Below, piece after piece: positions 6,657-50,986 of a DNA stretch of 50,988 nt. Location of the stretch: positions 1 to 50,988 of the forward strand of contig CABZLG010000006.1 of NCBI GenBank assembly GCA_902526535.1, in the 5' to 3' direction. The stretch is from an uncultured SAR86 cluster bacterium (lineage in GTDB: Bacteria > Pseudomonadota > Gammaproteobacteria > Magnimaribacterales > TMED112). A program made the position numbers and the translations under genes. Every line of letters begins with the position of its first letter. Position 1 is the first letter of the stretch. The notes below the pieces were generated by a model. It did not search any database, had not been told where the DNA came from, and saw only the letters and a program-made list of their open reading frames with translations.

Positions 6657-7375
6657 AAAATATTTTAATCATTGGCTCGGGGTTTATGGGCACCTCAATT
6701 GCTTTAGCTGTTGGTAATAAAATGACTTCTTGTGTAGAGGAATACTTACCATTTAAAGATTTTTTAATAAAGCAAAATATTTATAAAAATATATACAATT
6801 CTTTCGATGAAGTAGAAGATAGACATTTTGATTTAATAATTATTTGTTCTCGACAAAAGTCAATTCCTGATAAAATTAACGAGGCTTCAAAAAAATACCC
6901 CAGCTCAATAATTACTGAAATTTCAAGCTCAAAGAACTTTTTAAAAAAACATAATATGCCAGAAAATTTTATTTCTTCTCACCCAATTTGTGGGAGTCAT
7001 AATAGCGGTCCTAAATACTCCGATGGTGAAATTTTTAAGAATAAAGAAGTTATTGTTATATCAAATTCTAATAAATTTTTATCAGAAAAAATTAAACTAT
7101 TCTGGAATTCAATTGGAGCAAAAGTCACATACATGGATATAGAGGAACATAATAAAACATATGCATTTTTAAGTCATTTTCCTCATTATTTCAGTTTTAT
7201 TTATAAAAAAATTCTTGAGGAAGAAAAAATAGATTACAAACGTTTATCAGGTGAAAGTTTAAAAGAAATTTTACGTTTATCAGAGTCAGATAAAGATTTG
7301 TGGAATGAAATTTTTTCAGACAATAAAAAAAATCTTGATTTGTTGATAGAAAAAGTAAATAAATATTTGAAGTGA
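6653..7375 (+). CDS. tyrA: Prephenate dehydrogenase
   Basis: N-terminal GSGFMGTSIA Rossmann; SSHPICGSHNSGP; AFLSHFPHYFSF; upstream of aroA. Confidence 0.85.
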   Translation: MKNILIIGSGFMGTSIALAVGNKMTSCVEEYLPFKDFLIKQNIYKNIYNSFDEVEDRHFDLIIICSRQKSIPDKINEASKKYPSSIITEISSSKNFLKKHNMPENFISSHPICGSHNSGPKYSDGEIFKNKEVIVISNSNKFLSEKIKLFWNSIGAKVTYMDIEEHNKTYAFLSHFPHYFSFIYKKILEEEKIDYKRLSGESLKEILRLSESDKDLWNEIFSDNKKNLDLLIEKVNKYLK

Positions 7376-8553
7376 TTGAATTACCCTTAGATAAATCAAT
7401 AGCACAGAGATGTGCAATCCTTGGTCTAGATTTTAATAAAGATACAATTGGTGAGGATATAAAGAGCACTTTAAGAGCTGCAAAAGAATTTTCACAGAGC
7501 AATGGGAAAATAGTCCTAGATCTTGGAAATTCAGGTACGGGAATGAGATTATTGGCTGGATACATCGTAGGAACAGGCAAGGAATGTATTTTGAAGGGCG
7601 ATGCCTCACTTTCATCAAGACCTATGGACAGAATTGCAGGACCACTCAACAGAATGGGAGCAAATATTAAATTGAGTGCAGATAGATTTGCACCAATTGA
7701 TATTTCCAAGTCCTCTTTGAAGGATAATTTTGAATTCACTTTAAATATCCCCAGTGCACAAATAAAATCATGCATGCTGTTGGCAGCCTTAACCTCTCAA
7801 TCAAAAATTGAAATTACAGAGATAATTCCTTCAAGAGATCATACAGAGAGAATTCTTAAAGAATGTGGAGCAGATATTACGAGAAAAGAAAATAAAATAA
7901 TTTTCGATGGTAGAAAAAAAATTCAAAAGAAATTCATTGATATCCCAAGAGATTTTTCGTCAGCAGCCTATTTACTTGCAGCAAATCTGCTTACAAATAA
8001 ATCAATAATTTTAGAAAATGTAGGCGTAAATCCAACCAGAATTGCCTTTTTGAATACACTTGAAGAAATGGGAGCAACAGTCTCCTTAAAAAATAAATCA
8101 TCAAAATCAAATGAACCCAGAGCTGATATTATAGTTAAGAGCAAGCAAGAACTTAAGGGTGTTGAAATTTTTGGAGATAAAATACCAAATCTGATTGATG
8201 AAATCCCTCTTATAAGCACAATAGCCATGTTTGCAACGGGAAAAACAACAATAAGAGACGCTAAAGAACTAAGGTATAAGGAATCGGATAGGATAAGTCT
8301 ATTGCTATCAAACATTAAAAAATTCAATCCAAATACAACTATCAATGAGTATGATGACGGATTTGATATAATTCCTGAGTTGGATGAAAGTAATAGTTTT
8401 GTTGAAATCGAGACTCAAGGAGATCACAGAATCGCAATGAGCTTTATGATAGCCTCTCTTAAAGATAAGAAAAAAATTTACATTGATAATAGAAAATGTG
8501 TAGAAACTTCTTTTCCAAATTTTTTTGAATTAATAGAAAAATGGTACCAATAG
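7372..8553 (+). CDS. aroA: 3-phosphoshikimate 1-carboxyvinyltransferase (EPSP synthase)
   Basis: LDLGNSGTGMRLLAG; RYKESDRIS; GDHRIAMSF; GTG start overlapping tyrA stop. Confidence 0.95.
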   Translation: MIELPLDKSIAQRCAILGLDFNKDTIGEDIKSTLRAAKEFSQSNGKIVLDLGNSGTGMRLLAGYIVGTGKECILKGDASLSSRPMDRIAGPLNRMGANIKLSADRFAPIDISKSSLKDNFEFTLNIPSAQIKSCMLLAALTSQSKIEITEIIPSRDHTERILKECGADITRKENKIIFDGRKKIQKKFIDIPRDFSSAAYLLAANLLTNKSIILENVGVNPTRIAFLNTLEEMGATVSLKNKSSKSNEPRADIIVKSKQELKGVEIFGDKIPNLIDEIPLISTIAMFATGKTTIRDAKELRYKESDRISLLLSNIKKFNPNTTINEYDDGFDIIPELDESNSFVEIETQGDHRIAMSFMIASLKDKKKIYIDNRKCVETSFPNFFELIEKWYQ

Positions 8554-30796: not shown

Positions 30797-31974
30797 AAAA
30801 ATACTTTATTTGTCCTATGACGGTGTTTTAGAGCCTTTAGGGTCATCACAAGTCCTCAATTATGTTTTAGGACTTGCAAAAAGCCATAACTTTATTCTTT
30901 ATTCATTCGAAAAACCACATGATCTTAAAGACACTAAAAGAGTATCAGCAGTTTCAAAAATAATAAAAAAATCAGGAATTAAATGGATAAAAAGTATTTA
31001 CCATAAAAGTCCAACTACATTAGCAACTCTTTATGACTTATTTATTTTGTTAAGCAATCTAATTCTGATTCTATCTTTTAATAAAATTGGAATTATTCAT
31101 TTAAGAGGTTACTTATTGGGGATTCCATTATTAATTTTAAAAAAAATCTTTAAATTTAAATTAATTTTCGATATGAGAGGCTTCTGGGCTGACGAAAAAG
31201 CTGATAGAGCAGGATGGAATAGATCTGAATACAAGTATATTTTCTTTAAAACCATTGAAAAAGAACTTTTGAAAAGTGCAGATAAAATAATAACCTTAAC
31301 AGATCATTCGCGAGAATTTTTAGTAAAAGAGCATAAGGTAAGTCAAAAAGTCATCACAACAATCAGAACATGTGCTGATGAGAGTGTATTTAAAAAAATA
31401 AAAAAAGATGAGGATCAAACTATAAGATTCGGGTATTTGGGAACTCTCGATACAGCATACAATTTTCAAAAAGTTTTTAAATTTTTTCAATTTGTTCTCT
31501 CTAAAACATAAAAATGCTTACCTAGATATATATTCTTCAACCCCTGAATCTAAGATAATTAATATAGCTAGAGAAGTTGGATTCAAAGATCTTGAAAAGC
31601 TTTCAATTAAATTTATAAGAGATAAGAAAGAGCTAGTTAGTCAAATTAATAACTTTAATGCATGTATATTTTATTTGAATGAAAACTTTTCAGTTAAAGC
31701 CTCTATGCCTACAAAAATAGGCGAGGTTCTTATGTGCGGAGTCCCAATTATATGCAATGGGTTTAACAATGATATTGAGTACTTAGCTAATCAAGGATGT
31801 GGAATTATTACAAATTTTGCTAAGGATGACATAGATAAAGTTTTCGAATTTGTAAATCCAAATAATAATAAAGAGAAATTGAATTTAAAGTGTATTGAAA
31901 TTGGCAAAAAAGAATTTTCATTAAAGTCAGGATTAAAGTTATATACTTCAATTTATGAGGAGCTTTCAAAATGA
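30777..31974 (+). pseudogene. Glycosyltransferase split by a 1-nt frameshift (ORFs 30777-31511 and 31492-31974)
   Basis: N-part LSYDGVLEPLGSSQVLNYVLGLAKSHN...FGYLGTLDTAYN; C-part KNAYLDIYSSTPESK...KASMPTKIGEVLMCGVPIICN; different frames overlapping at 31492-31511. Confidence 0.75.
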
Positions 31975-34163
31975 AAAAACCTTTCGTTAGCGTTGTTGTA
32001 GCAAGTTATAACAGAAAGTACATAATCAATGAAAGTATTCAATCTATTCTTTCGCAAAATTATCCAGAGAATTCATTTGAGGTAATTGTTGTAGACAATA
32101 ACTCTAATGATGGAACAGTATCTGAAATTAAAAAAATATTTTCTAGGGAAATAGATAATAAAAAAATAAAACTTCTAGATTTAAAATTAAATTCTGGTTC
32201 ATCAGGTTCATATATTGAAGCCTTAAAGGTTATTCATGAGGATTGGAAATACATGCTAAAAATGGATGAAGATGTAGTACTTGATAAAGATTGTGTTGCT
32301 GAGCTAGTTAATGAAGCAGAAAAATCAGAAAAACATACTTTTGTAGGTGGAAAAGTATTTTATTTTCAAAATAAGAATACATTACATGCTATTGGTGCCG
32401 ACTTAAAACCTTACTATGCAATAGCAAAAGGTATTGGTGTTAATGAAACTAATCACGAAAAATTCTCTGAAGCTAGAACACTTGATGCTCTAAATGGATG
32501 TATGGTGTTAATTTCCAGAAAAATAGAAAAAGAAATTGGTTGGTTTGATAAAGATTACTTTCTCTATTACGACGATCATGATCTGATGTACAGATCTATA
32601 AAAGCAAAAAATATTCATCGTTTTACTCCGAAAGCTATTGGTTATCACGATACTAAAACAGGCAGCAAAAATAAATATGCAAATAAACAATGGTTATATT
32701 ACTCAACAAGAGGATCATTATTATTTCTTAAAAAGAACTTCAAATCACTATCGGTTGGGTGGTTTTTATACTTGCTCGCTCATAATATAAAGTTTACCGC
32801 AGGCTTATTTTTTTTATTCATTCATTCTAACTATCACAATTTTCTTATAAATCTTCGTTATTTTTTCAAAGGATATCTTCATGGCATTCAAGGAAAAAAA
32901 GGATTTTACGATATTAATCAAAATGGTTTGAATGTAGTTGTATTTTCAGGAGGAAGGGGTTCGATAAACTTATGTGATGGACTTAGAGAGTTTTCAAAAG
33001 TAAATGATGTTAATTTAAATTTAACAAATATTATTAATGCTTATGATGATGGCCTCTCAACTGGTGCAATAAGAGCTTTTTTTGATTATAAAATTTTAGG
33101 ACCTTCTGATTTAAGAAAAGTCCAAGAGACTCAATATGAATTTTATTATCCAGAAGGAGAGGGGCTCGATTTTTTTAAAAGCCGTACATCATGTGACTTC
33201 CTAGATTTTAAAAATGATATTTCTAAGCTTATAGATAATCAAAATTATAAATCAAAGTTTTTCCCTTATTACCAAAAAATGAATTATCAAATGCAAGAGA
33301 TAATTAGTGATTCACTTTCACATTTTAAAAAAATTTCTGAAGAGCAAAATAAATCATTAAAAATCCAAGATTTTGCCTTATCTAATATTATTTATGGTTC
33401 TCTAGAGCATGAATATGGAGATATAAAGAAAGTTGAACTTATGGTGAGAGATGCTTTCAATTTGCCAAATGAGGTTTTCCTTAATTCATCAGAGACTGGT
33501 TATCTTTTCGGTCTTACAGAGGATGGAAAGCTTCTGAAAGACGAGTCAGAAATTGTAGGTTATGAGGGAAAAACACCAATTTTTGAAATTTTTTATAAAA
33601 AATATCCATTATCAAAAGAAGAGGAGAAGCAATTTAAGTCTTTATCAGGGCTTATTAAGAAAAAACAGTATCTCGAAAATGTGTCATCATCATTTCCTGA
33701 CCTAAGCCAAGACACTTCTTTAGCAGTTCGTAAAGCCGACATTATAATATATGGTCCTGGTACTCAATACAGCAGTTTGTACCCAACTTATTGGACAAAA
33801 GGATTAACTGAAGAGATCTCAAAATCTTCAGCACAAAAGTTTTTTATAACAAATATTGATCATGACAATGAAACCCCAGAATTCACTGCTGCAGATCAAA
33901 TTAAGCAGGCAAGGTTTTATTTAAACCAAAAAGGAAAACTTAATTTTAGGATACCTGAACTTTTTGATGTAATTATTTCAAATTCTCCATCAAAACAAGA
34001 TTCTAGGTACATAAGGTTGAATATGAGCGAATTATATCAACTTGATCTTAAGGAAATCCTAGCTGAAGATTTTGAATCTATTGACTCAGGAAAACATGAT
34101 AATTTAAAAATTTCATCATTAATAATGGGTGCAAATAGCTCAAAATGGAGATCAGATTCTTGA
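31971..34163 (+). CDS. Fusion: GT2 glycosyltransferase + YvcK/CofD-like domain
   Basis: N-term SVVVASYNRKYIINESIQSILSQNYPENSFEVIVVDNNSNDGT; C-term VVVFSGGRGSINLCDGLREF, NAYDDGLSTGAIR, GPSDLRK, IIIYGPGTQYSSLYPTYWTKGL, FITNIDHDNETPEFTAADQI. Confidence 0.82.
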   Translation: MKKPFVSVVVASYNRKYIINESIQSILSQNYPENSFEVIVVDNNSNDGTVSEIKKIFSREIDNKKIKLLDLKLNSGSSGSYIEALKVIHEDWKYMLKMDEDVVLDKDCVAELVNEAEKSEKHTFVGGKVFYFQNKNTLHAIGADLKPYYAIAKGIGVNETNHEKFSEARTLDALNGCMVLISRKIEKEIGWFDKDYFLYYDDHDLMYRSIKAKNIHRFTPKAIGYHDTKTGSKNKYANKQWLYYSTRGSLLFLKKNFKSLSVGWFLYLLAHNIKFTAGLFFLFIHSNYHNFLINLRYFFKGYLHGIQGKKGFYDINQNGLNVVVFSGGRGSINLCDGLREFSKVNDVNLNLTNIINAYDDGLSTGAIRAFFDYKILGPSDLRKVQETQYEFYYPEGEGLDFFKSRTSCDFLDFKNDISKLIDNQNYKSKFFPYYQKMNYQMQEIISDSLSHFKKISEEQNKSLKIQDFALSNIIYGSLEHEYGDIKKVELMVRDAFNLPNEVFLNSSETGYLFGLTEDGKLLKDESEIVGYEGKTPIFEIFYKKYPLSKEEEKQFKSLSGLIKKKQYLENVSSSFPDLSQDTSLAVRKADIIIYGPGTQYSSLYPTYWTKGLTEEISKSSAQKFFITNIDHDNETPEFTAADQIKQARFYLNQKGKLNFRIPELFDVIISNSPSKQDSRYIRLNMSELYQLDLKEILAEDFESIDSGKHDNLKISSLIMGANSSKWRSDS

Positions 34164-36057: not shown

Positions 36058-36792
36058 ATGCAGAGTAATAGTATAGCAATAATCCCTGCAAGGGGAGGCT
36101 CTAAGGGGCTTGAGAAAAAGAATTTAAGAGAATTCTTGGGTCATCCTTTAATTGCATGGCCAATCGAGGCAGCTAAGAGATCCAAAAAACTTTCAAAAAT
36201 AGTTGTTTCTACAGATGATAAAGACATAAGAGAGGTCGCTTTAAAATATGGTGCTGAAGTTCCCTTTTTACGAACTAGTAATGTTTCAGGTGACTTAACA
36301 ACCACCGAGGAGACTTTAAAGTATTCTTTATTAGAGTCCGAAAAAATATTTAAACAAAGCTTCGATATATGTGTTTTTTTAACATGTACAGATTTATTTA
36401 GAAGAGATGGATGGATAGATCATGCTATAGATGCACTTGAAGAAAATAATGAATTGGAGAGTGTATTTGTCACTAATGAAACCCACAAAAACTTTTGGGA
36501 GGTAATTGATAATAATCCAATACGTCTTAAAGAGTGGATGAGTGTTTATGAGAGTAGACAAGTTAGAAGAAAATCATACAGGGAAGATACTGGGTTAGCT
36601 TGTGCATCTCGTTCAAACCTTTGGAGGAATGGCCGTAGAATTGGTGACAATGTTCAGCTGATAACAGATAATAGAAGCTTTTCAGCATTAGACATACATA
36701 ATGATTTTGATTTATTTTTAGCTAATAAGGCAGCCGAATGGATCAAAGAGAATGATTTTGAAAATTTACCTCCGGTACCAGAGAAAATATGA
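36058..36792 (+). CDS. Acylneuraminate cytidylyltransferase-like (CMP-sugar synthetase)
   Basis: IAIIPARGGSKGLEKKNLREFLGHPLIAWPIEAAKRS; IVVSTDDKDIREVALKYGAEVPFLRT. Confidence 0.88.
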   Translation: MQSNSIAIIPARGGSKGLEKKNLREFLGHPLIAWPIEAAKRSKKLSKIVVSTDDKDIREVALKYGAEVPFLRTSNVSGDLTTTEETLKYSLLESEKIFKQSFDICVFLTCTDLFRRDGWIDHAIDALEENNELESVFVTNETHKNFWEVIDNNPIRLKEWMSVYESRQVRRKSYREDTGLACASRSNLWRNGRRIGDNVQLITDNRSFSALDIHNDFDLFLANKAAEWIKENDFENLPPVPEKI

Positions 36793-38114
36793 TGAAAAAA
36801 GCTTCCATAATAATTAGAACGAAGAATGAAGAAAAATGGATTTCTATTTGTTTGAATGCAATTTTCAAACAAGATTACAAAAATTTTGAGGTGATTATTG
36901 TAGATAATTGTTCTACAGACAAGACTGTTGAAAAAGCAAAAGAATGGAATGTAAAAGTAGTTACCCTCAAAGAATTTAAACCAGGAAACGCAATAAATTT
37001 TGGAATTGAAAACTCTTCAGGAGATTATCTGATATGTTTGTCTGCTCACTGTATTCCTAAAGAGAAAGATTGGCTTAAAAATTTAGTAAGTGATTTAGAA
37101 GATGAAAAAATTGCGGGTGTTTATGGAAAGCAAGTGCCCACAAGTTCATCACACTATCTCGATAAAAGGGATTTATTTCTGACATTTGGAAATGATAAGA
37201 GAGTTCAGGAAAAGGATTCTTTTTTTCACAATGCCAACTCAGCATTTACGAGAAAAACCTGGGAGAAATTTCGTTTTGATGACGAAGTGACTAATATTGA
37301 GGACAGAATTTGGGGAAAAGAAGTTATAAAGAATAAACTCAAGATTGTATATGAGCCAGATGCAGTAGTTTTTCATCATCATGGTATACATCAGGAAGCA
37401 GATAAAAAAAGAGCTAAAAAAATTGTTCAAATAATGGAAGCAGACGAATTTAAGAGTGAAAATCTTTGTGAATATAAAGGAAAAACAAAAGACATACTTA
37501 TTATTTTTGATCGAGAAAAATATGACGACTTTCGTCTTGGTCTTTTGCGAAAAGTTATAAGTGATGCAAAAAAAAGTTCGGTTTTTGAAGACATAGTATT
37601 TTGTGGAATTGATAAAAGGGCTTTGAAGCAAGCAGAAGAATCTGGACTCGATATTTTTGATAGAAGTACAAAAGACTATGACACCTCCTTAAATGATGTA
37701 TTAAAAGATTGCCTTTTAGATTTTGAAAATCAAAAATATATACCTAATTCTATTACTCTTTCTTCTGTTAACTACCCTTTTAGAGATCAGAGTAGTTTTA
37801 AAAATTTGGTAGATAGTTTTTACGAATCAGCATTTCTACCAACACTTTATAGTCATGAAGAAAAAAGAATATGTTTTACAAGAGGAGAGGAAAGCGAAAT
37901 AGCAATAAACAATCAGCTATTGCCAAGAGAATTAGAAGAATCATCAGTGATGATTTGTCCATTTGGTTTTGGGTGCACACTTAATGCCTCAGATTTAAGG
38001 AATGGGAACTTTTTACAAAAAAGAGTAAATCTTATCCCCCAACTTAATCAAGCTGATATGATTGAAATAAGCACTGAAGAAGAAATGAGTAAATTTGAGG
38101 TGAAATTTGAGTAA
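36789..38114 (+). CDS. GT2 glycosyltransferase fused to a C-terminal domain resembling a degenerate NeuA-type cytidylyltransferase
   Basis: N-term ASIIIRTKNEEKWISICLNAIFKQDYKNFEVIIVDNCSTDKT; C-term DILIIFDREKYDDFRLGLLRKVISDAKKSSVFEDIVFCG ... SITLSSVNYPFRDQSSFKNLVDSF. Confidence 0.75.
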   Translation: MMKKASIIIRTKNEEKWISICLNAIFKQDYKNFEVIIVDNCSTDKTVEKAKEWNVKVVTLKEFKPGNAINFGIENSSGDYLICLSAHCIPKEKDWLKNLVSDLEDEKIAGVYGKQVPTSSSHYLDKRDLFLTFGNDKRVQEKDSFFHNANSAFTRKTWEKFRFDDEVTNIEDRIWGKEVIKNKLKIVYEPDAVVFHHHGIHQEADKKRAKKIVQIMEADEFKSENLCEYKGKTKDILIIFDREKYDDFRLGLLRKVISDAKKSSVFEDIVFCGIDKRALKQAEESGLDIFDRSTKDYDTSLNDVLKDCLLDFENQKYIPNSITLSSVNYPFRDQSSFKNLVDSFYESAFLPTLYSHEEKRICFTRGEESEIAINNQLLPRELEESSVMICPFGFGCTLNASDLRNGNFLQKRVNLIPQLNQADMIEISTEEEMSKFEVKFE

Positions 38115-39168
38115 ATTAAAGCTAGCTTTCATAGGTTTAGGGCGTGCAGCTCAACATTATACTGAAGTCATTAAAGAAAATTTATCTGATGAATATATCT
38201 TTTCTGTAGGTGTAGATCAGTATGCAGAATCAAGGAGCAAATGGGAAAAAGAGAATTCAGGTAAGACTTTTTCTTCAATAGATGAGGTAAGTAAAGATGA
38301 TGTTGATATTGCAATAATTACCACTCCATCAGGTAGTCATGCTGATAACTCAAAAGTGCTTTTACAAAATGGAGTTAATGTTCTGTGTGAAAAACCTATA
38401 GGTCTTAACGTAGGGGATGTTGTTGCAAATATGGCACTTGCTAAAGAAAAAAATGTTCTTTACGGAGGTGTATTTCAAAACAGACTAAATAAACCAATTA
38501 AATATATTGAAAAACTCTTTTCACAAAATGATTTTGGAAAAATCATTTCAGCAAGTGTTAAATTACAGTGGTGCCGGCTTCAAGATTATTACAATGATGA
38601 ATGGCACGGCAGATGGAAAACAGATGGTGGAGTAATTAGCCAGCAAGCAATACACCATATTGATGCTCTATTTTATTTATTTGGTCCTCCGCAATTTTTA
38701 TCTGGTTTCTCTGGAAATATCAATAATAAACTTGAAGCAGAGGATACTTTTGTTGCATCTGGAACACTTTTGAAGGGCGGATTTTTTACAATTGAAGCAA
38801 CGACCGCTGTAAGACCTGAAGATTTTTCAGCATCATTGGAAGTGGTGACTGATAAATATCAAATTTCAGTTGGAGGCATCGCTTTAAATGAGCTAACAAG
38901 AGTTAAGCTTGATGGAGTGGAACTGTCAAATGAACTTAAAGAGAACTCAGAAACTGTAAAAAATGGTTATGGTAACGGTCATTTACATATGCTCAAAGAA
39001 ATTAGTAAAAATTTTAATGAATCCGGAAAAATTATTTTTCCTACAAGTGCAGAATCAAGTTTAGATTCAATAAAATATATTCATGCTTTATATTCGTCTG
39101 TGGAGAATAATTCAATAATTTCATTTTCTGATGATGTTAGATCAGCTAAACTAGGGCAAGATGTATAA
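38107..39168 (+). CDS. Gfo/Idh/MocA-family oxidoreductase
   Basis: LKLAFIGLGRAAQHYTEVI; TPSGSHADNSKVLLQNGVNVLCEKPIGLN; GGVISQQAIHHIDALFYLFG. Confidence 0.92.
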   Translation: MSKLKLAFIGLGRAAQHYTEVIKENLSDEYIFSVGVDQYAESRSKWEKENSGKTFSSIDEVSKDDVDIAIITTPSGSHADNSKVLLQNGVNVLCEKPIGLNVGDVVANMALAKEKNVLYGGVFQNRLNKPIKYIEKLFSQNDFGKIISASVKLQWCRLQDYYNDEWHGRWKTDGGVISQQAIHHIDALFYLFGPPQFLSGFSGNINNKLEAEDTFVASGTLLKGGFFTIEATTAVRPEDFSASLEVVTDKYQISVGGIALNELTRVKLDGVELSNELKENSETVKNGYGNGHLHMLKEISKNFNESGKIIFPTSAESSLDSIKYIHALYSSVENNSIISFSDDVRSAKLGQDV

Positions 39169-40036
39169 CAAGTTTCCTGGAAAAGATATAACTGAAGAGG
39201 ATATAAAGTCTAAAATACCTTTAGTAGCTAATTTTTCAAAAGAACCTTTCGAAATAGCAGGTGTTGTTTTTAATGGTAAAAAAATTCCTGTTATGGCAGG
39301 TCCAAACATGGTTGAGTCAGAGGAACTCATCATAGAAACTGCAAAGTCAGTAAAAGCTTCAGGTGCTAGTTTTCTAAGAGGTGGAGCTTTCAAACCTTTA
39401 AGTTTTCCATATAGAAATGAGAAATATACAGAAACAGGCTTAGATGGTCTTAAGTGGTTAAAGTCAGCTAGAGAGGAGGCTGAAATACCTGTTATAACTG
39501 AAGTTATGGAAGAAAAACATTTAGATGCAGTATGCGATGCTACGGATATCTTGCAGATTGGATCTAGAAACATGCAAAATTATCCTTTAATAGTAGAATC
39601 AGCAAAGACAGGTTTCCCTATCATGCTTAAACGACATTATGGTGCCTCATTAAGAGATTGGTTGGGAGCAGCTGAGTACGCTCTTAAGGAAGGCTGTACA
39701 AAATTAATTTTATGTGAGAGAGGAATGTCAATTCCACATACTCATAGAGCAACTTCTAGATTTTCATTGGATTTGCAAGTTCTTCCAGCAACACAAGAAA
39801 TAACAAATATTCCAGTTGCTACTGACCCCTCCCATGCAACCTTCTGGCGTGATTGGGTTGAACCAATGACACTTGCATCAATTGCATCTGGAGCCGATTC
39901 AATAATGTTAGAGGTTCATCCAGATCCAGAAAATTCTGCAGTTGATCCTTTGCAACCAATCAACTTCGATACGTTTGATTCTCTCATGAAAAAAATGGAT
40001 AACGTTGCAAAAGCTGTTGCTAAACAAGTAATTTGA
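39161..40036 (+). CDS. DAHP synthase family (type I beta-like) with divergent substrate and metal motifs
   Basis: VMAGPNMVESEELI; LRGGAFKPLSFPYRNE; DILQIGSRNMQNYPLI; ILCERGMSIPHTHRATSRFSLDLQVLP; TDPSHAT; MLEVHPDPENSAVDPLQP. Confidence 0.85.
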   Translation: MYNKFPGKDITEEDIKSKIPLVANFSKEPFEIAGVVFNGKKIPVMAGPNMVESEELIIETAKSVKASGASFLRGGAFKPLSFPYRNEKYTETGLDGLKWLKSAREEAEIPVITEVMEEKHLDAVCDATDILQIGSRNMQNYPLIVESAKTGFPIMLKRHYGASLRDWLGAAEYALKEGCTKLILCERGMSIPHTHRATSRFSLDLQVLPATQEITNIPVATDPSHATFWRDWVEPMTLASIASGADSIMLEVHPDPENSAVDPLQPINFDTFDSLMKKMDNVAKAVAKQVI

Positions 40037-40050
40037 AGATGAAAAGGGCG

Positions 40051-40869
40051 GTAATAATAGGGAAAGATGTTTCAAAGGGTGCTCGTTCTCCTATATTATG
40101 GAATGCTGCTTTTAACGCACTCGATATAGATGCAGAAATGACAACTGTAGATATAGAGCATGAAAGTGATGCAATAGAATTCTTAGATTCAGAAACATCA
40201 AAACCTGATTTTATTGGTGGAGCGGTAGCAGCACCACTTAAAGAAGTTGTCGCTGATTATTTTGCAAATAATAGTGGAAGTTTTATTGAGCCAAAAAATT
40301 GTTTCTTTAATTCTGAAGGCAGGTTTACAGCAGCTAATACTGATACCTTAGCTTTACTCGAATCAATTAGTTCTGTAAAAAAAGATTTAGATATTAAAAG
40401 GGTATGCATTCTTGGAACAGGAGGAGTTTCAAAATCATTGTGCTATCAACTTTCTAATCAAAATAAAAATTTTGATATAGATGTTTATGGAAGAAATCAG
40501 GAAATTTCTAGTTTATTTACTGATTTTGGGATGAATTTTAAAGATTATGGTTCGCTTAATCTTGATATAGAAAACTATGATGTTCTTATAAATTGCACTT
40601 CTATAGGTAAAGATGGAAATAATGAAGATTCTATTCTTTCAACTAGTCAATTAAGTTTAATTAATAAAGAAGCTCTGTTATTCGATGTTAATTATATAAA
40701 CAGTCCTTCAAAACTATTAAGAGATGCAAGCTCTCTTTCTCTAAATTGTATTGATGGCTCACGAATGAATCTTATGCAAGCAGTCATAGGTTTTTGTTTA
40801 GCAAATGATCTGGTAGGAAAAGAAGATGTTGTTCATCAACACATGCTTGAAGCAATTAAAGAGATTTAA
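40051..40869 (+). CDS. Shikimate dehydrogenase (AroE)-like, divergent substrate pocket
   Basis: AVIIGKDVSKGARSPILWNAAF; GGAVAAPLKEVVADYF; AANTDTLALL; RVCILGTGGVSKSLCYQL; GSRMNLMQAVIGF. Start approximate (track 40033). Confidence 0.82.
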   Translation, partial: VIIGKDVSKGARSPILWNAAFNALDIDAEMTTVDIEHESDAIEFLDSETSKPDFIGGAVAAPLKEVVADYFANNSGSFIEPKNCFFNSEGRFTAANTDTLALLESISSVKKDLDIKRVCILGTGGVSKSLCYQLSNQNKNFDIDVYGRNQEISSLFTDFGMNFKDYGSLNLDIENYDVLINCTSIGKDGNNEDSILSTSQLSLINKEALLFDVNYINSPSKLLRDASSLSLNCIDGSRMNLMQAVIGFCLANDLVGKEDVVHQHMLEAIKEI

Positions 40870-41740: not shown

Positions 41741-42610
41741 TTAATTGCTTTTCTTAAATTCTTTATATTGATTTTTAAACTTGTCGTATTCAGATTTATT
41801 AAATCTATTAAATAAATCAATAAATGAAATTTTTATTTTTTTGTTAAGATCAAAAACTATCCCTGATTTTTCTGTAAATACCTCAATTTCATTACTTAAG
41901 GCTAATTTATTAACAAAATCCTCACTTCCATTTGGACAATTTATAACGGTAATATTCTCATTAAGTAATTCTAGTATTCTCTCATCTTCTCTGGGGTGGG
42001 GGATGTATAGATCAGGGCATAGTTTATTTATTTTTAAAGCTGCTTCATTTATTTTCTTCTCTATGATTTTTGGTTTTTTCAAAAGATCTTCTCTATGACT
42101 AAAAACCCAATTGCTACTTACTCCAAAGAATATCTTTGTAATCTTTTTCGTAATTTTTTTCTTCTTAAGAAACGTAGTCGATTTAATAGGATGATTAAAA
42201 ATTTTTGGATCGAAAAACGAATAGTGTTTATCACTTTTCTCTAAGAGTTTTCCAAATGGTAATGGAAAGCCGCAAATTTTATTCAAAAAATAAAACCTTT
42301 TTTGATTTTCTAAAGAGAAAATCTTGGAATAATATTTATCATTTTCGTCAATATTTCTTTGACCCTCATCAAAGGTAATAAATTTATCGAAATGTAAAAA
42401 TTTATAAAGTAGCTGGAATTTAAAATCATCAACATTGCAGCCAACTAGAAAATCATATTTCTTCTTTTTGGAAATAGTATTTAATGAAAAATTTTCTGGA
42501 TAAACTATTTCAATTTCACAATTTTTCTTTTCACTTTTAAATAAATCATCTGCTATTAGATCAATCTTCCACTTATAGTATTTTTTTTGAATGTAACAGA
42601 GGGCTTTCAT
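41741..42610 (-). CDS. Putative glycosyltransferase, GT52/sialyltransferase-like
   Basis: FITFDEGQRNID resembling the D-D/E-G motif and LYIPHPREDERILELL resembling the HP motif. Confidence 0.5.
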   Translation of the reverse strand: MKALCYIQKKYYKWKIDLIADDLFKSEKKNCEIEIVYPENFSLNTISKKKKYDFLVGCNVDDFKFQLLYKFLHFDKFITFDEGQRNIDENDKYYSKIFSLENQKRFYFLNKICGFPLPFGKLLEKSDKHYSFFDPKIFNHPIKSTTFLKKKKITKKITKIFFGVSSNWVFSHREDLLKKPKIIEKKINEAALKINKLCPDLYIPHPREDERILELLNENITVINCPNGSEDFVNKLALSNEIEVFTEKSGIVFDLNKKIKISFIDLFNRFNKSEYDKFKNQYKEFKKSN

Positions 42611-46765: not shown

Positions 46766-47226
46766 AATTCATAGCTCATCGGGGTTTGTTTCAAGGACCT
46801 GACAAAGATAAAGAAAATAATCCTGATCAAATCTGTGAAGCTTTAGAAAAAGGTTTCGATGTTGAAATTGATCTAAGATGTGATGAGAATAATAACCTTT
46901 TCTTGGGACATGATTATAATCAATATCCAATATTAAAAGACTTTTTACTTGATAGCATCGATAGGTTTTGGATTCATTGCAAAAATTTAGAGGCGCTAAA
47001 CCATATCAACTTATTTCAAGATGCAAATTATTTCTGGCATCAAGAAGATGACTACACACTAACTTCTAAGAATTTTGTGTGGGTTTATCCTGGAAAAAAA
47101 CTTCTGAAAAACTCGATCTTGGTAATGCCTGAGTGGGATATTGAAGTTTCAAAAATAAAATTAGATGAAGAAATTTTTGGTGTTTGCAGTGATTATGTTT
47201 TGGAATTAAGAGAATCTAATTCTTAG
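46762..47226 (+). CDS. Small phosphodiesterase-like protein (GDPD/PI-PLC-like TIM barrel, short)
   Basis: FIAHRGLFQGPDKDKENNPDQICEALEKGFDVEIDLRCDENNNLFLGHD; TTG start. Confidence 0.7.
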   Translation: MKFIAHRGLFQGPDKDKENNPDQICEALEKGFDVEIDLRCDENNNLFLGHDYNQYPILKDFLLDSIDRFWIHCKNLEALNHINLFQDANYFWHQEDDYTLTSKNFVWVYPGKKLLKNSILVMPEWDIEVSKIKLDEEIFGVCSDYVLELRESNS

Positions 47227-48094
47227 AATCCTCTATTTCGTGAATTATTTCTAATACTCCTTGGCCAATATCTATAAATTTTTTAGGAACAAGTTTCTTT
47301 GATTCTTTAGGTTGAAAGCTATATGGGCTAATTTTGTAATGAGAAACAACTTTTGATTCTTTTGATAAATTAATCTTTTCGTCAAGTTGCAGTACCTCAA
47401 AGATTAATTTAAATAAATCCAAGGTGCTTATAACTTGATGGCCTGTAATATTCACAGCAATATTTTTTTCTTCACTCTCTAAAAGACTTGCCGTCATAAT
47501 TGCAGCATCTTTCACATGAATATACTCTCTCTTTTCCTCACCGTTTCCTGAGAAATCTATTTGTTTATTTTTTATAATTTCTGATATATATTTTTTTAAA
47601 CCGTTCCATTCTTGTGCTCTAGGACCATATAAAGAGCCATATCTAACATGAATATAGTCGAGGTTAAACTCATTTTGATATTCCTCAATCAGTAATTCAC
47701 AGGCCTGTTTGGATTTTCCATAAAAGGAACCATATTTGCTGAAAACATAGACAGATGAAGCAAAAATAAATTTTTCAATTTTATTTTTTCTACATCCTTC
47801 AAGAAGATTTGCTGTTCCAATAATATTTGTTTCGATAGTTTCAAGCGGTTTTTCTTTTGATTCTCCAATATCCGCAATACCTGCAAAATGAATGACAAAG
47901 TTAAATCCTTCTAGACTTTTAATTACATGTTCTCTGTCGAGTAAGTCGCTTTCTATAAATTTTTGATTATCATTTATCCAGGTTGATTTTTTCTGATCGA
48001 ATATAGTTACTTCATAACCTTTCTCAGTAAGTTCATCTGCAACATGGCTTCCTAAGAAACCTGAGCCACCTACAACTAATGCCTTTTTTGCCAT
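47216..48094 (-). CDS. NAD-dependent epimerase/dehydratase (SDR)
   Basis: ALVVGGSGFLGSHVADELTEKGYEVTIFD; FASSVYVF; YGKSKQACE; YGPR. Confidence 0.92.
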   Translation of the reverse strand: MAKKALVVGGSGFLGSHVADELTEKGYEVTIFDQKKSTWINDNQKFIESDLLDREHVIKSLEGFNFVIHFAGIADIGESKEKPLETIETNIIGTANLLEGCRKNKIEKFIFASSVYVFSKYGSFYGKSKQACELLIEEYQNEFNLDYIHVRYGSLYGPRAQEWNGLKKYISEIIKNKQIDFSGNGEEKREYIHVKDAAIMTASLLESEEKNIAVNITGHQVISTLDLFKLIFEVLQLDEKINLSKESKVVSHYKISPYSFQPKESKKLVPKKFIDIGQGVLEIIHEIEDSKN

Positions 48095-48095
48095 T

Positions 48096-48845
48096 TTATT
48101 TATACCTTAAATAATAACTATCATTGACCATAAGCTTTTCTACATCTTCCAAATCTTTAGGCGTATCAACTCCTATTGTTTTAGATTCACATAAAAGCAT
48201 TTTAATTGGAATGTTATATTCAATGAATCTTAACATATCGATACTTTCTGCACGTTCTAAAGGACCCTCAGCCATATTGGCATATTCATAAAGAAGAGAC
48301 TTCTTGAAAGCTACAACTCCTATATGTTTAAAGAACTTTTCACCATGACCTTTAAGGGATCCTGGTATTGCAGCTCTAGAAAAGAATGCAGCATAATTAT
48401 ATAGATCAACTACTACTTTTGGATTATTTAAATCTTCAGCTTGTTCTTCTGAGATCTCATCCATAAGAGTAACTGTTCTGTCAGTATTATTAGAAATGTA
48501 ATTTGCAAGCGTTTTTAAAATCTCAGGAGAAAATAAAGGCTCATCTCCTTGATAAAGCACAACATTTTCAAAAGAATCATCAATTTTTGTAATTGCTTCA
48601 GCTATTCTTTCGGTACATCTTGTATGGGTATCTTTGGTATCTATAGATTTGCAACCAATAGATTTACTAAAATCATGGATCTCTTGATCTGGAGTAGCTA
48701 TGTAGATATCGGAAAAGCATTCTGCTAACTTTGCTCTTATAAAGCAATGATGAAGCATTTCAATACCACAAATCTTTTCTAAAGCTTTCCCAGGGAATCT
48801 TGAAGAGCCCATCCTAGCAGGAATTATACAGATTGTGTTATTCAT
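48096..48845 (-). CDS. 3-deoxy-manno-octulosonate cytidylyltransferase-like (KdsB family)
   Basis: CIIPARMGSSRFPGKALEKICGIEMLHHCFIRA; YQGDEPLFSPEIL; HIGVVAFKKSLLYEYANMAEGPLERAESIDMLRF. Confidence 0.88.
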   Translation of the reverse strand: MNNTICIIPARMGSSRFPGKALEKICGIEMLHHCFIRAKLAECFSDIYIATPDQEIHDFSKSIGCKSIDTKDTHTRCTERIAEAITKIDDSFENVVLYQGDEPLFSPEILKTLANYISNNTDRTVTLMDEISEEQAEDLNNPKVVVDLYNYAAFFSRAAIPGSLKGHGEKFFKHIGVVAFKKSLLYEYANMAEGPLERAESIDMLRFIEYNIPIKMLLCESKTIGVDTPKDLEDVEKLMVNDSYYLRYK

Positions 48846-48856
48846 AAATTCTGAAC

Positions 48857-48862
48857 ATTATA
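48857..48862 (-). promoter_or_regulatory. Putative -10 element for the KdsB-like gene
   Basis: TATAAT on - strand, 11 nt from ATG at 48845. Confidence 0.45.
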
Positions 48863-48884
48863 CTCCAGTTGCAATATACCTAAG

Positions 48885-49517
48885 CTATAAAAAATTCTCT
48901 ACTTGATGAATATTCTCATCAATTATCAAGTGTTTATTGTATTCATTCTTGATAAAAAGAAACTTCATATTAAAGTGATTAGCACATTGAAGATCTGATT
49001 TTGAATCACCGATGAATAGGCAGTTATTTAAATTTATATCTTTTGATTCGATAAAATCTTCAACACACTCAATTTTTGTTTTTGGTGAGCCATAAACTTT
49101 ATTGAAGAATTTACTTATTTCAATTTTTTCAATAATTCTTTCAATTTCATCCTGTGGTGTGGCAGTAATTAATATCGATTTATCTAACTCACTCAATATT
49201 TCAAGCACCCCCTCAACCCAATCTGAATTGATCACACCATCGAATACTAATTCCGAAAATCTATTAAGATATGATTGAACATTTTTCTCTTTTGTCTCTA
49301 TACCTAAATATTCCATGTAATACGGAATTTTTTTAAATCTTGATAACCCCTGATTATTAATATGATGGTTGAGAATATACTCTTTTTGCTCTTTTTTAAT
49401 ATCTTCAAATAAATTGAAGAAAGCATCATTTTTTACTTGATTTGATTTTTTAATTACTCCATCAAAGTCCCAAAAGATGATTTTTGATCTAAAAATTAAT
49501 TCTTTAATCTCACTCAT
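48885..49517 (-). CDS. HAD-superfamily hydrolase (beta-PGM-like)
   Basis: IIFWDFDGVIKKSNQVKNDAFFNLF; ILITATPQDEIERIIEK; CLFIGDSKSDLQCA. Confidence 0.88.
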   Translation of the reverse strand: MSEIKELIFRSKIIFWDFDGVIKKSNQVKNDAFFNLFEDIKKEQKEYILNHHINNQGLSRFKKIPYYMEYLGIETKEKNVQSYLNRFSELVFDGVINSDWVEGVLEILSELDKSILITATPQDEIERIIEKIEISKFFNKVYGSPKTKIECVEDFIESKDINLNNCLFIGDSKSDLQCANHFNMKFLFIKNEYNKHLIIDENIHQVENFL

Positions 49518-50436
49518 CCAATAAACTAATTAAATTTTCGCAAGCCTTTCGTTCCATTTGGTCTCGAACATACTCTGTTGACGATGCTACATGTGGTGTT
49601 GCAATTAGATTTTTACAATCCAAAAGCTTTCCCTCATAAGGTTCAGTTGCAAATACGTCTAAAGCTGCACCTTTAATAAGATTTGAATTTAAAGCTTCGT
49701 ATAAATCTTCCTCGTTAATCAATCCACCTCTGCTAACATTTATTAAATATGAGTTTTTACCCATAACTAAAAGTTCTTTTTTAGAAATCATATTTTTATT
49801 TTTCTCATTCATAGGCACATGTAGGGAAACAATATCAGAATTGCTGAGACACTCTTCAAATCCACAAATAGATATACTTTCATGTTTCCAGTCTGGGTCA
49901 GTGCTTAAATCAAGTATGTCAAAAACTTTTATTTTTTTGACTCCCGCAGATAATAAAAATTTACTAACATTTTTTGCAACTCTTCCACCTCCTATTAATG
50001 AAATAGTTGCTTCATTTAGGGATTTACCTAATGTTCTCTCCCAATTGCCTTGATTTAAATTTAGTTGATGCGAAGAAATTTCCCTCAACAAATTTAATAT
50101 AAATGCTAGTGTAAGTTCAGCAACTCCTTTTGCCGGCTCTTCAGGAGTATTAAAAATTTTTATATTATTTTTTGCTGCAATATCTAAATTAATATTATCT
50201 ATCCCAATGCCAACTCTTGATATACCTTTTAAATTCACTAACTTGCTTAGTAATTCTTGATCATATTTTTCAGTTCCAGCAATAACATAATCTGCTTTGT
50301 GAACTTGTTCATAAACTTCTTCATTCTTAATTTTTCTTCCAAGAGGATTTATTGTCACATCAAATGATTTTTCAAGAAAAGCCAAGTTGTCTTTATTAAA
50401 TGGAAGGGTAGTTATATGAACTTTTAATTTAGTCAT
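49510..50436 (-). CDS. D-isomer-specific 2-hydroxyacid dehydrogenase
   Basis: GISRVGIGIDNINLDIAAKNNIKIFNTPEEPAKGVAELTLAFILNLLR; LINVSRGGLINEEDLYEAL; ATPHVASST. Confidence 0.9.
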   Translation of the reverse strand: MTKLKVHITTLPFNKDNLAFLEKSFDVTINPLGRKIKNEEVYEQVHKADYVIAGTEKYDQELLSKLVNLKGISRVGIGIDNINLDIAAKNNIKIFNTPEEPAKGVAELTLAFILNLLREISSHQLNLNQGNWERTLGKSLNEATISLIGGGRVAKNVSKFLLSAGVKKIKVFDILDLSTDPDWKHESISICGFEECLSNSDIVSLHVPMNEKNKNMISKKELLVMGKNSYLINVSRGGLINEEDLYEALNSNLIKGAALDVFATEPYEGKLLDCKNLIATPHVASSTEYVRDQMERKACENLISLLDE

Positions 50437-50986
50437 TTACACAATACATTATATTAAGTTCCCCATTATAACTATTTATAAGCTTGCCGATTGGTAAATT
50501 AATAACCTCTTCAGATTTGCTTTCAATTTTATTTATCAGATCATATTTATTCTTGCCTTTAGCAATAAAAAGAATCTCTTTAGTTTTCTTAATATATTTT
50601 TCTGAAAGAGTAATCCTATATTCAAAACTATCACCAATTTTTGCAGAAATTATTTTCAAATTATTACTTTCATCATTTTCAATAACTTCGGTTGAGGGAA
50701 ATATTGATGCATAGTGGCCATCATCACCTAATCCAAGTAAGGCAATATCTGGATGTTTGATCTTGTTCAAAGCATTAGAGATTTTGCTTAATGAAATATT
50801 TTTATAATTACTAATTGGAAAATCACATAACTTAAAAATACTGGAATTTGTTAAAGAAGATATTGTAAGAAAATTACTTCTCTCCCTATCATTTGTAATC
50901 CTTTCATCACTTAAAATCAATTGGTTAAATATTTTTTCGTTAAAAAATTTTTTGAATAAAAAAAGAGGTGTTGTACCTCCAGGAAC
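50429..50986 (-). CDS. 6-phosphogluconolactonase-like (sugar isomerase/lactonase family), 5'-truncated by window edge
   Basis: Frame open to the window edge: VPGGTTPLFLFKKFFNEKIFNQLILSDERITNDRERSNF; DIALLGLGDDGHYASIFP. Confidence 0.85.
   Translation of the reverse strand, partial: VPGGTTPLFLFKKFFNEKIFNQLILSDERITNDRERSNFLTISSLTNSSIFKLCDFPISNYKNISLSKISNALNKIKHPDIALLGLGDDGHYASIFPSTEVIENDESNNLKIISAKIGDSFEYRITLSEKYIKKTKEILFIAKGKNKYDLINKIESKSEEVINLPIGKLINSYNGELNIMYCVND

Follow-up and report, generated by a model that had tools for sequence, protein, structure and literature searches.

Why do relatives of two enzymes of aromatic amino acid synthesis, the 3-deoxy-D-arabino-heptulosonate 7-phosphate (DAHP) synthase DAHPS and the shikimate dehydrogenase AroE, lie among glycosyltransferase genes in an uncultured SAR86 bacterium? 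The question is raised by contig C6 (CABZLG010000006.1) of an incomplete SAR86 genome (771 kb, 70.9% complete), analyzed as one stretch of 50,988 nucleotides and called the window. Five open reading frames (ORFs) on the + strand at 36058-40869, successive ones overlapping by 4, 8, 8 and 4 bp, form the cassette under study: a NeuA-like cytidine monophosphate (CMP)-sugar synthetase, a fusion of a family 2 glycosyltransferase (GT2) with a cytidylyltransferase-type domain, a Gfo/Idh dehydrogenase, a DAHPS-like protein and an AroE-like protein. An earlier reading of the bare sequence, the original prediction, had described five same-strand genes with overlapping or nearly abutting ends, and coordinates, strand and domain calls all agree with it; the gene for 5-enolpyruvylshikimate-3-phosphate synthase (aroA), which it placed some 30 kb away among core genes, is found with such genes at 7372-8553, about 28 kb from the cassette. 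Apparently, two enzymes of aromatic amino acid synthesis have been re-tooled in SAR86, SAR11 and a few other bacteria to make an acidic surface sugar that is activated like sialic acid. What we observed is which genes are present, how they are conserved and associated, that the DAHPS-like and AroE-like proteins fall into clades of their own and that their active sites have changed. Every reaction described below is inferred from these observations, which together make it probable that the cassette serves a dedicated pathway to a new CMP-activated 3-deoxy-2-ulosonic acid on surface glycans.

The DAHPS-like protein (39161-40036, +) is a predicted phosphoenolpyruvate (PEP)-condensing synthase. 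It matches the Pfam family DAHP_synth_1 with an E-value of 1.2e-49 and the NeuB family with 7.7e-5, and its best models are PRK08673 and TIGR01361. The TIGR01361 score (256.6 bits) falls below the equivalog threshold of 267.75, and the KdsA equivalog is not reached (87.6 against 314). With residue roles taken from PMC6362186, the PEP-binding residues R73, K78, R136, K157 and R187 are present in all 26 DAHPS-like proteins, as are the metal ligands His, Glu and Asp. The fourth ligand, a Cys in 29/29 canonical type I-beta enzymes, is Asn in 26/26 DAHPS-like proteins (Asn49 in the window), and the Arg that binds erythrose 4-phosphate (E4P), again invariant in the 29 canonical enzymes, is Leu in all 26 (Leu80 in the window), so that a canonical KPR[TS] motif stands against KPL[TS]F. 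The aligned Arg is retained in 7/7 local KdsA proteins; the KANRSS-type motif of KdsA thus has its Arg replaced by Leu in the cassette enzyme. An insertion carries an invariant Arg85, and a second, His193-Thr-His195, is invariant in the 22 DAHPS-like proteins aligned there. AlphaFold predicts a DAHPS barrel (pLDDT 86) with template modeling (TM) scores of 0.80-0.83 to type I-beta DAHPS; apart from the N-terminus, confidence is lowest in the altered substrate loops (residues 80-83 and 194-196). In the tree, the 26 DAHPS-like proteins are not scattered among the canonical I-beta enzymes and form one clade of their own, with a support of 100/100 and a stem of 1.35.

Similar changes mark the AroE-like protein (40033-40869, +), which likewise belongs to a separate clade. 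It contains Shikimate_dh_N and scores 97 against the TIGR00507 cut-off of 200, a threshold that the local canonical SAR86 AroE proteins also miss, at about 132-144. Among residues with known roles in AroE, the catalytic Lys65 and Asp102 are retained as K70 and D104 in 24/24 proteins, Asn89 and Gln249 are invariant, and Ser16 of the carboxylate pocket is kept as Ser19. Its neighbor Ser14 has become Ala or Pro in 23/23, the residue between these two positions is the newly invariant Arg18, and Trp23 is newly invariant as well, giving ARSP..W instead of S-x-S-P..H. The altered substrate-recognition motifs noticed in the original prediction are present in both families. The third-best match of the AroE-like protein in the PDB is 5-ketofructose reductase, a solved AroE-family enzyme whose substrate is a neutral ketose. 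The second dehydrogenase, of the Gfo/Idh/MocA family (38107-39168, +; PF01408, 6.2e-19), is present in all cassette loci free of contig-end cuts save one (L119), in which no close counterpart was found.

The remaining two genes point to activation with CMP. The NeuA-like protein (36058-36792, +) has an intact PARGGSKGLEKKN loop, matches CTP_transf_3 (PF02348) with an E-value of 2.7e-25 and finds its best NCBIfam match, under cut-off, in PseF (1.4e-34); the nearest solved structure is 9ftb, a CMP-Pse5Ac7Ac synthetase. The cassette thus possesses one feature of nonulosonic acid synthesis, a NeuA/PseF-type CMP-sugar synthetase. The fusion protein (36789-38114, +) begins with a GT2 domain (Pfam, 2.4e-30), and its C-terminal half of about 210 amino acids, blank in Pfam, aligns to the NeuA set by hhalign with 99.9% probability. 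The AlphaFold model of this part (pLDDT 79) has CMP-Pse, CMP-Neu and CMP-Kdn synthetases as its top matches, in accord with the fusion originally proposed, and the domain is degenerate, having lost the RGGSKG nucleotide loop. At one locus (L121), GT2 and NeuA-like proteins are encoded by separate adjoining genes. The NeuA-like proteins of L095, L096, L098, L099 and L101 are about 580 amino acids long, and the one scanned is fused to an S-adenosylmethionine (SAM) methyltransferase domain.

Is this arrangement more than a local accident? In another family of the same order (genome G149), the same five genes occur in the same order, with 56, 52, 49, 72 and 44% identity, one extra gene inserted, and flanks unrelated to those of the window. 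Within the genus, only 3 of about 20 SAR86 genomes carry the cassette. The DAHPS-like gene is found in 19/396 SAR11 genomes at 51-70% identity, and a class search added five carriers with genomes of 2.6-6 Mb and 59-72% identity; the two named carriers in a contig scan are SAR86 AG-907-K13 and Pelagibacteraceae AH-326-E21. With 25 more loci carrying the gene, almost all of them together with the same partners, the arrangement is far beyond chance. Among 21 SAR86 and SAR11 loci, AroE-like genes are present in 20, Gfo/Idh genes in 19 and NeuA-like genes in nearly all (five as methyltransferase fusions), the missing partners falling on short or cut contigs; partners are present at four of the five other alphaproteobacterial loci. 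A profile of the AroE-like clade run over the 396 SAR11 genomes separates 18 at >=267 bits from all others at <=~190, and all 18 lie within the 19 with a DAHPS-like gene (hypergeometric p ~3e-30, uncorrected for relatedness). Pairwise distances of the DAHPS-like, AroE-like and Gfo/Idh proteins correlate with r of 0.75-0.85 (0/2000 permutations). Gene order is shuffled in SAR11 and the other Alphaproteobacteria, and therefore the linkage is not the mere inheritance of one segment. The cassette is a genuine conserved module, and the co-occurrence of DAHPS-like, AroE-like and NeuA-like genes in other genomes is nearly perfect.

Outside cellular genomes, a single-protein scan of viral contigs gave no DAHPS-like match, an alignment-based scan of them gave only canonical DAHPS (GPC/KPRT) or a broken frame (L124), and plasmid and phage collections held only enzymes at most 44% identical to the DAHPS-like protein. 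Phosphonate-type neighbors at L039 (AH-326-E21) were set aside, as the contig looks chimeric at the start of the DAHPS-like gene; there, a truncated decarboxylase-like ORF (1882-2439) runs antisense into the gene start, probably marking a chimeric junction in this single-cell contig.

Carriers with sufficiently complete genomes also possess a canonical DAHPS, and nearly all of them a canonical AroE. In G013, a SAR86 relative with a closed genome, there are KdsA, a separate AroE and an AroG-type (type I) DAHPS 365 amino acids long; type II DAHPS was found in 10/10 alphaproteobacterial carriers tested, and a second, canonical AroE in 16/18 SAR11 carriers. The cassette genes are not sole copies in these genomes. 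In the window's own incomplete genome, a search found KdsA and a separate AroE-type gene, and no other DAHPS.

These data have led us to propose a model, quite probable in its outline, of a dedicated CMP-ulosonic-acid pathway. In the first step, the DAHPS-like enzyme would condense PEP with an aldehyde sugar, neither E4P nor arabinose 5-phosphate, to give a 3-deoxy-ulosonic acid. No haloacid dehalogenase (HAD) phosphatase recurs near the cassette in three local queries and a Pfam tally, with HAD detection limited; because of this and of the loss of the E4P-binding Arg, the aldose could, with about an even chance, be unphosphorylated, as in NeuB reactions. Catalysis may equally proceed without a metal ion, a prospect that we judge evenly balanced. 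To our knowledge, metal independence is known from KdsA and not from DAHPS. An Asn in place of Cys marks the non-metal KDO8P synthases, in which good activity needs further loop changes (PMC3052366). In the second step, the Gfo/Idh and AroE-like enzymes would carry out two redox steps on the ulosonic acid, whose pyranose form, a six-membered ring with a carboxylate, a CH2 and neighboring hydroxyls, resembles dehydroshikimate. In the simplest form, one ring hydroxyl would be oxidized and then re-reduced; that the two dehydrogenases invert one hydroxyl in this way is a rather doubtful detail. In the third step, the NeuA-like enzyme would use CTP to form the CMP-sugar, and in the fourth, the sugar would be added to the surface glycan by the GT2-cytidylyltransferase fusion or by a different transferase encoded nearby, with flagellin as a possible acceptor in some Alphaproteobacteria. 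The best reading of the product is a 3-deoxy-2-ulosonic acid that is neither DAHP nor Kdo (3-deoxy-D-manno-octulosonic acid); it draws on PEP chemistry that has been preserved, an aldose site that has not, the CMP-sugar synthetase partner and the glycan context. The non-shikimate CMP-ulosonic route of the original prediction is supported by the separate clades, the additional canonical copies and the co-occurrence, and those of its refuting conditions that sequence can address did not hold. The aldose phosphate that it assumed is less likely, because all 26 proteins have Leu at the position of the E4P Arg.

For the last step, the fusion is a better transferase candidate than the family 52 (GT52)-like glycosyltransferase encoded downstream on the other strand (41741-42610, -; PF07922, 6.1e-8). 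The family call holds for this suggested CMP-sugar user, which may be an alternative; its gene is conserved solely among near-identical SAR86 loci and does not belong to the recurring set. In G013 it has a partial tandem duplicate (L040, 7583-7810). Proteins of about 380 amino acids with absent or weak Pfam matches are encoded near the cassette at L095 (8198), L098 (7002), L099 (16608), L110 (1696) and L041 (8159), and are possible CMP-sugar transferases. As to acceptors, a flagellin gene lies about 3 kb from the cassette at L120, and a tetratricopeptide repeat (TPR)-GT41 protein is encoded in the L119 neighborhood. FlmG, a TPR-type transferase, places pseudaminic acid on flagellin (PMC7591256); it is a parallel to the L119 protein rather than a proven homologue. 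Genes for a flavin mononucleotide (FMN)-dependent hydroxy-acid dehydrogenase recur near SAR11 cassettes (L095 7170, L098 5948, L099 14112, L107 12862, L108 12347, L109 6206, L110 5574); this enzyme or the methyltransferase domain at some SAR11 loci suggests variants of the sugar.

Several points weigh against the proposed pathway. The GT2 fusion is missing from the sub-clade at 52% identity, and NeuA distances correlate less tightly than the others (r 0.50-0.63). Several SAR11 loci also have NeuB genes, so that part of the NeuA copies may belong to nonulosonic acid synthesis. At L119, the stretch read holds the DAHPS-like gene alone of the cassette. Either the invariant Arg85 or the inserted His193-Thr-His195 is a possible phosphate-binding site, and a phosphorylated substrate followed by a housekeeping phosphatase is possible, as HAD detection was limited.

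Among other explanations, the one that survives best is a variant of the same pathway and does not exclude it: the Gfo/Idh and AroE-like enzymes would act before condensation to make an unusual aldehyde, from which the DAHPS-like enzyme would form the final ulosonic acid. The gene set is equally compatible with this order of events and 5-ketofructose reductase sets a precedent for a neutral ketose, yet the AroE-like pocket keeps Ser19 and gains Arg18, fitting an acid substrate, and we regard this order as the less likely one. More improbable is a Kdo variant route, in which the DAHPS-like enzyme replaces KdsA and yields Kdo or an isomer for the capsule. The Asn of non-metal KdsA and a KdsB-like gene in the window (48096-48845) speak for it; against it are a separate KdsA-type gene in this and related genomes, the Leu in place of the Arg kept by local KdsA, and an activating enzyme of the PseF/NeuA rather than the KdsB type. 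It is very unlikely that the two proteins are extra shikimate-pathway isozymes located by chance in a glycan island: by fold and nearest sequences they belong with type I-beta DAHPS and AroE, and PEP and catalytic residues are retained, but the E4P Arg and metal Cys are replaced throughout, Ser14 of the AroE pocket is lost, canonical enzymes already exist in carriers, and NeuA and Gfo/Idh constantly accompany the two, aroB and aroD not being among the recurring neighbors. Clusters for 3-amino-5-hydroxybenzoic acid (AHBA; rif genes) also join DAHPS, AroE-like and Gfo/Idh-like proteins, but a C7-cyclitol or aminoshikimate-type pathway to a carbocyclic product is least probable of all, since the genes are constantly accompanied by a CMP-sugar synthetase and neither a sugar-phosphate cyclase (dehydroquinate-synthase-like) nor a constant aminotransferase is among the recurring neighbors, rare occurrence being possible.

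Two further features of the window lie outside the cassette. At 47216-50920 (-) is a second candidate CMP-sugar module with genes for a short-chain dehydrogenase/reductase, a KdsB-like CTP transferase, a HAD protein, a D-2-hydroxyacid dehydrogenase and a glucosamine-6-phosphate-isomerase-like protein; its counterparts are L104 13441-17446 and L122 10245-14111, and at the SAR11 locus L104, four of its genes recur together with an HpcH/HpaI aldolase. At 31971-34163, a 730-amino-acid protein fuses a GT2 domain to a CofD-like domain (2-phospho-lactate transferase family), the latter a stand-alone gene in L041 (17645-18859).

From the CMP-ulosonic-acid pathway proposed here, a novel sugar acid and a novel route to CMP-sugars are expected in about 5% of sampled SAR11 genomes (19/396) and in some SAR86, bacteria in which phages probably use surface glycans as receptors. 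The literature searched, whose coverage left out most subscription papers, yielded no account of such a gene set, and annotation by sequence similarity would call such genes shikimate enzymes. Tentatively, and with somewhat less than even confidence in the whole, DAHPS and AroE would have been recruited together from aromatic metabolism for a new CMP-sugar acid, made by the first known metal-independent synthase of the DAHPS lineage from an unphosphorylated aldose, and decorating the surface of bacteria that are among the most abundant in the ocean and, elsewhere, flagellin. The family offers a natural test case for metal dependence within that lineage, and the cassette enzymes are predicted to be small and soluble.

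Compared with known systems, the predicted pathway is a variant of CMP-ulosonic-acid biosynthesis that would work in the manner of nonulosonic acid and Kdo synthesis, yet lacks defining features of both. The pathways to pseudaminic (Pse), legionaminic (Leg) and neuraminic (Neu) acids, with NeuB, PseI or LegI followed by NeuA or PseF, likewise combine PEP with a sugar, activate the product with CMP and transfer it to polysaccharide or flagellin, and the NeuA-like enzyme is nearest to CMP-Pse synthetase. The cassette synthase, however, is of the DAHPS lineage and not of the NeuB family that defines those pathways, and AroE-like and Gfo/Idh enzymes replace those acting on hexoses derived from UDP-N-acetylglucosamine. 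With the Kdo pathway (KdsA, KdsC, KdsB), the cassette shares the aldolase superfamily, the Asn for Cys of non-metal KdsA and CMP activation; it differs in the Leu for an Arg common to KdsA and DAHPS, in having no recurring KdsC-type phosphatase, and in that KdsA is encoded separately. Type I-beta DAHPS has the same fold, about 38% identity and all PEP residues, whereas the cassette enzyme shows Cys to Asn, Arg to Leu and Ser to Phe replacements, the Arg85 and His193-Thr-His195 insertions, its own clade and other partners. AroE and 5-ketofructose reductase share the catalytic Lys and Asp, the Asn and the Gln with the AroE-like protein, which is set apart by its Ser14 replacement, Arg18 and Trp23; its best equivalog score is about half of the cut-off, below which local canonical SAR86 AroE proteins fall too. 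Unlike AHBA and aminoshikimate clusters, in which the cyclase and AHBA synthase belong to the set, the cassette recurs without these two and with a CMP-sugar synthetase.

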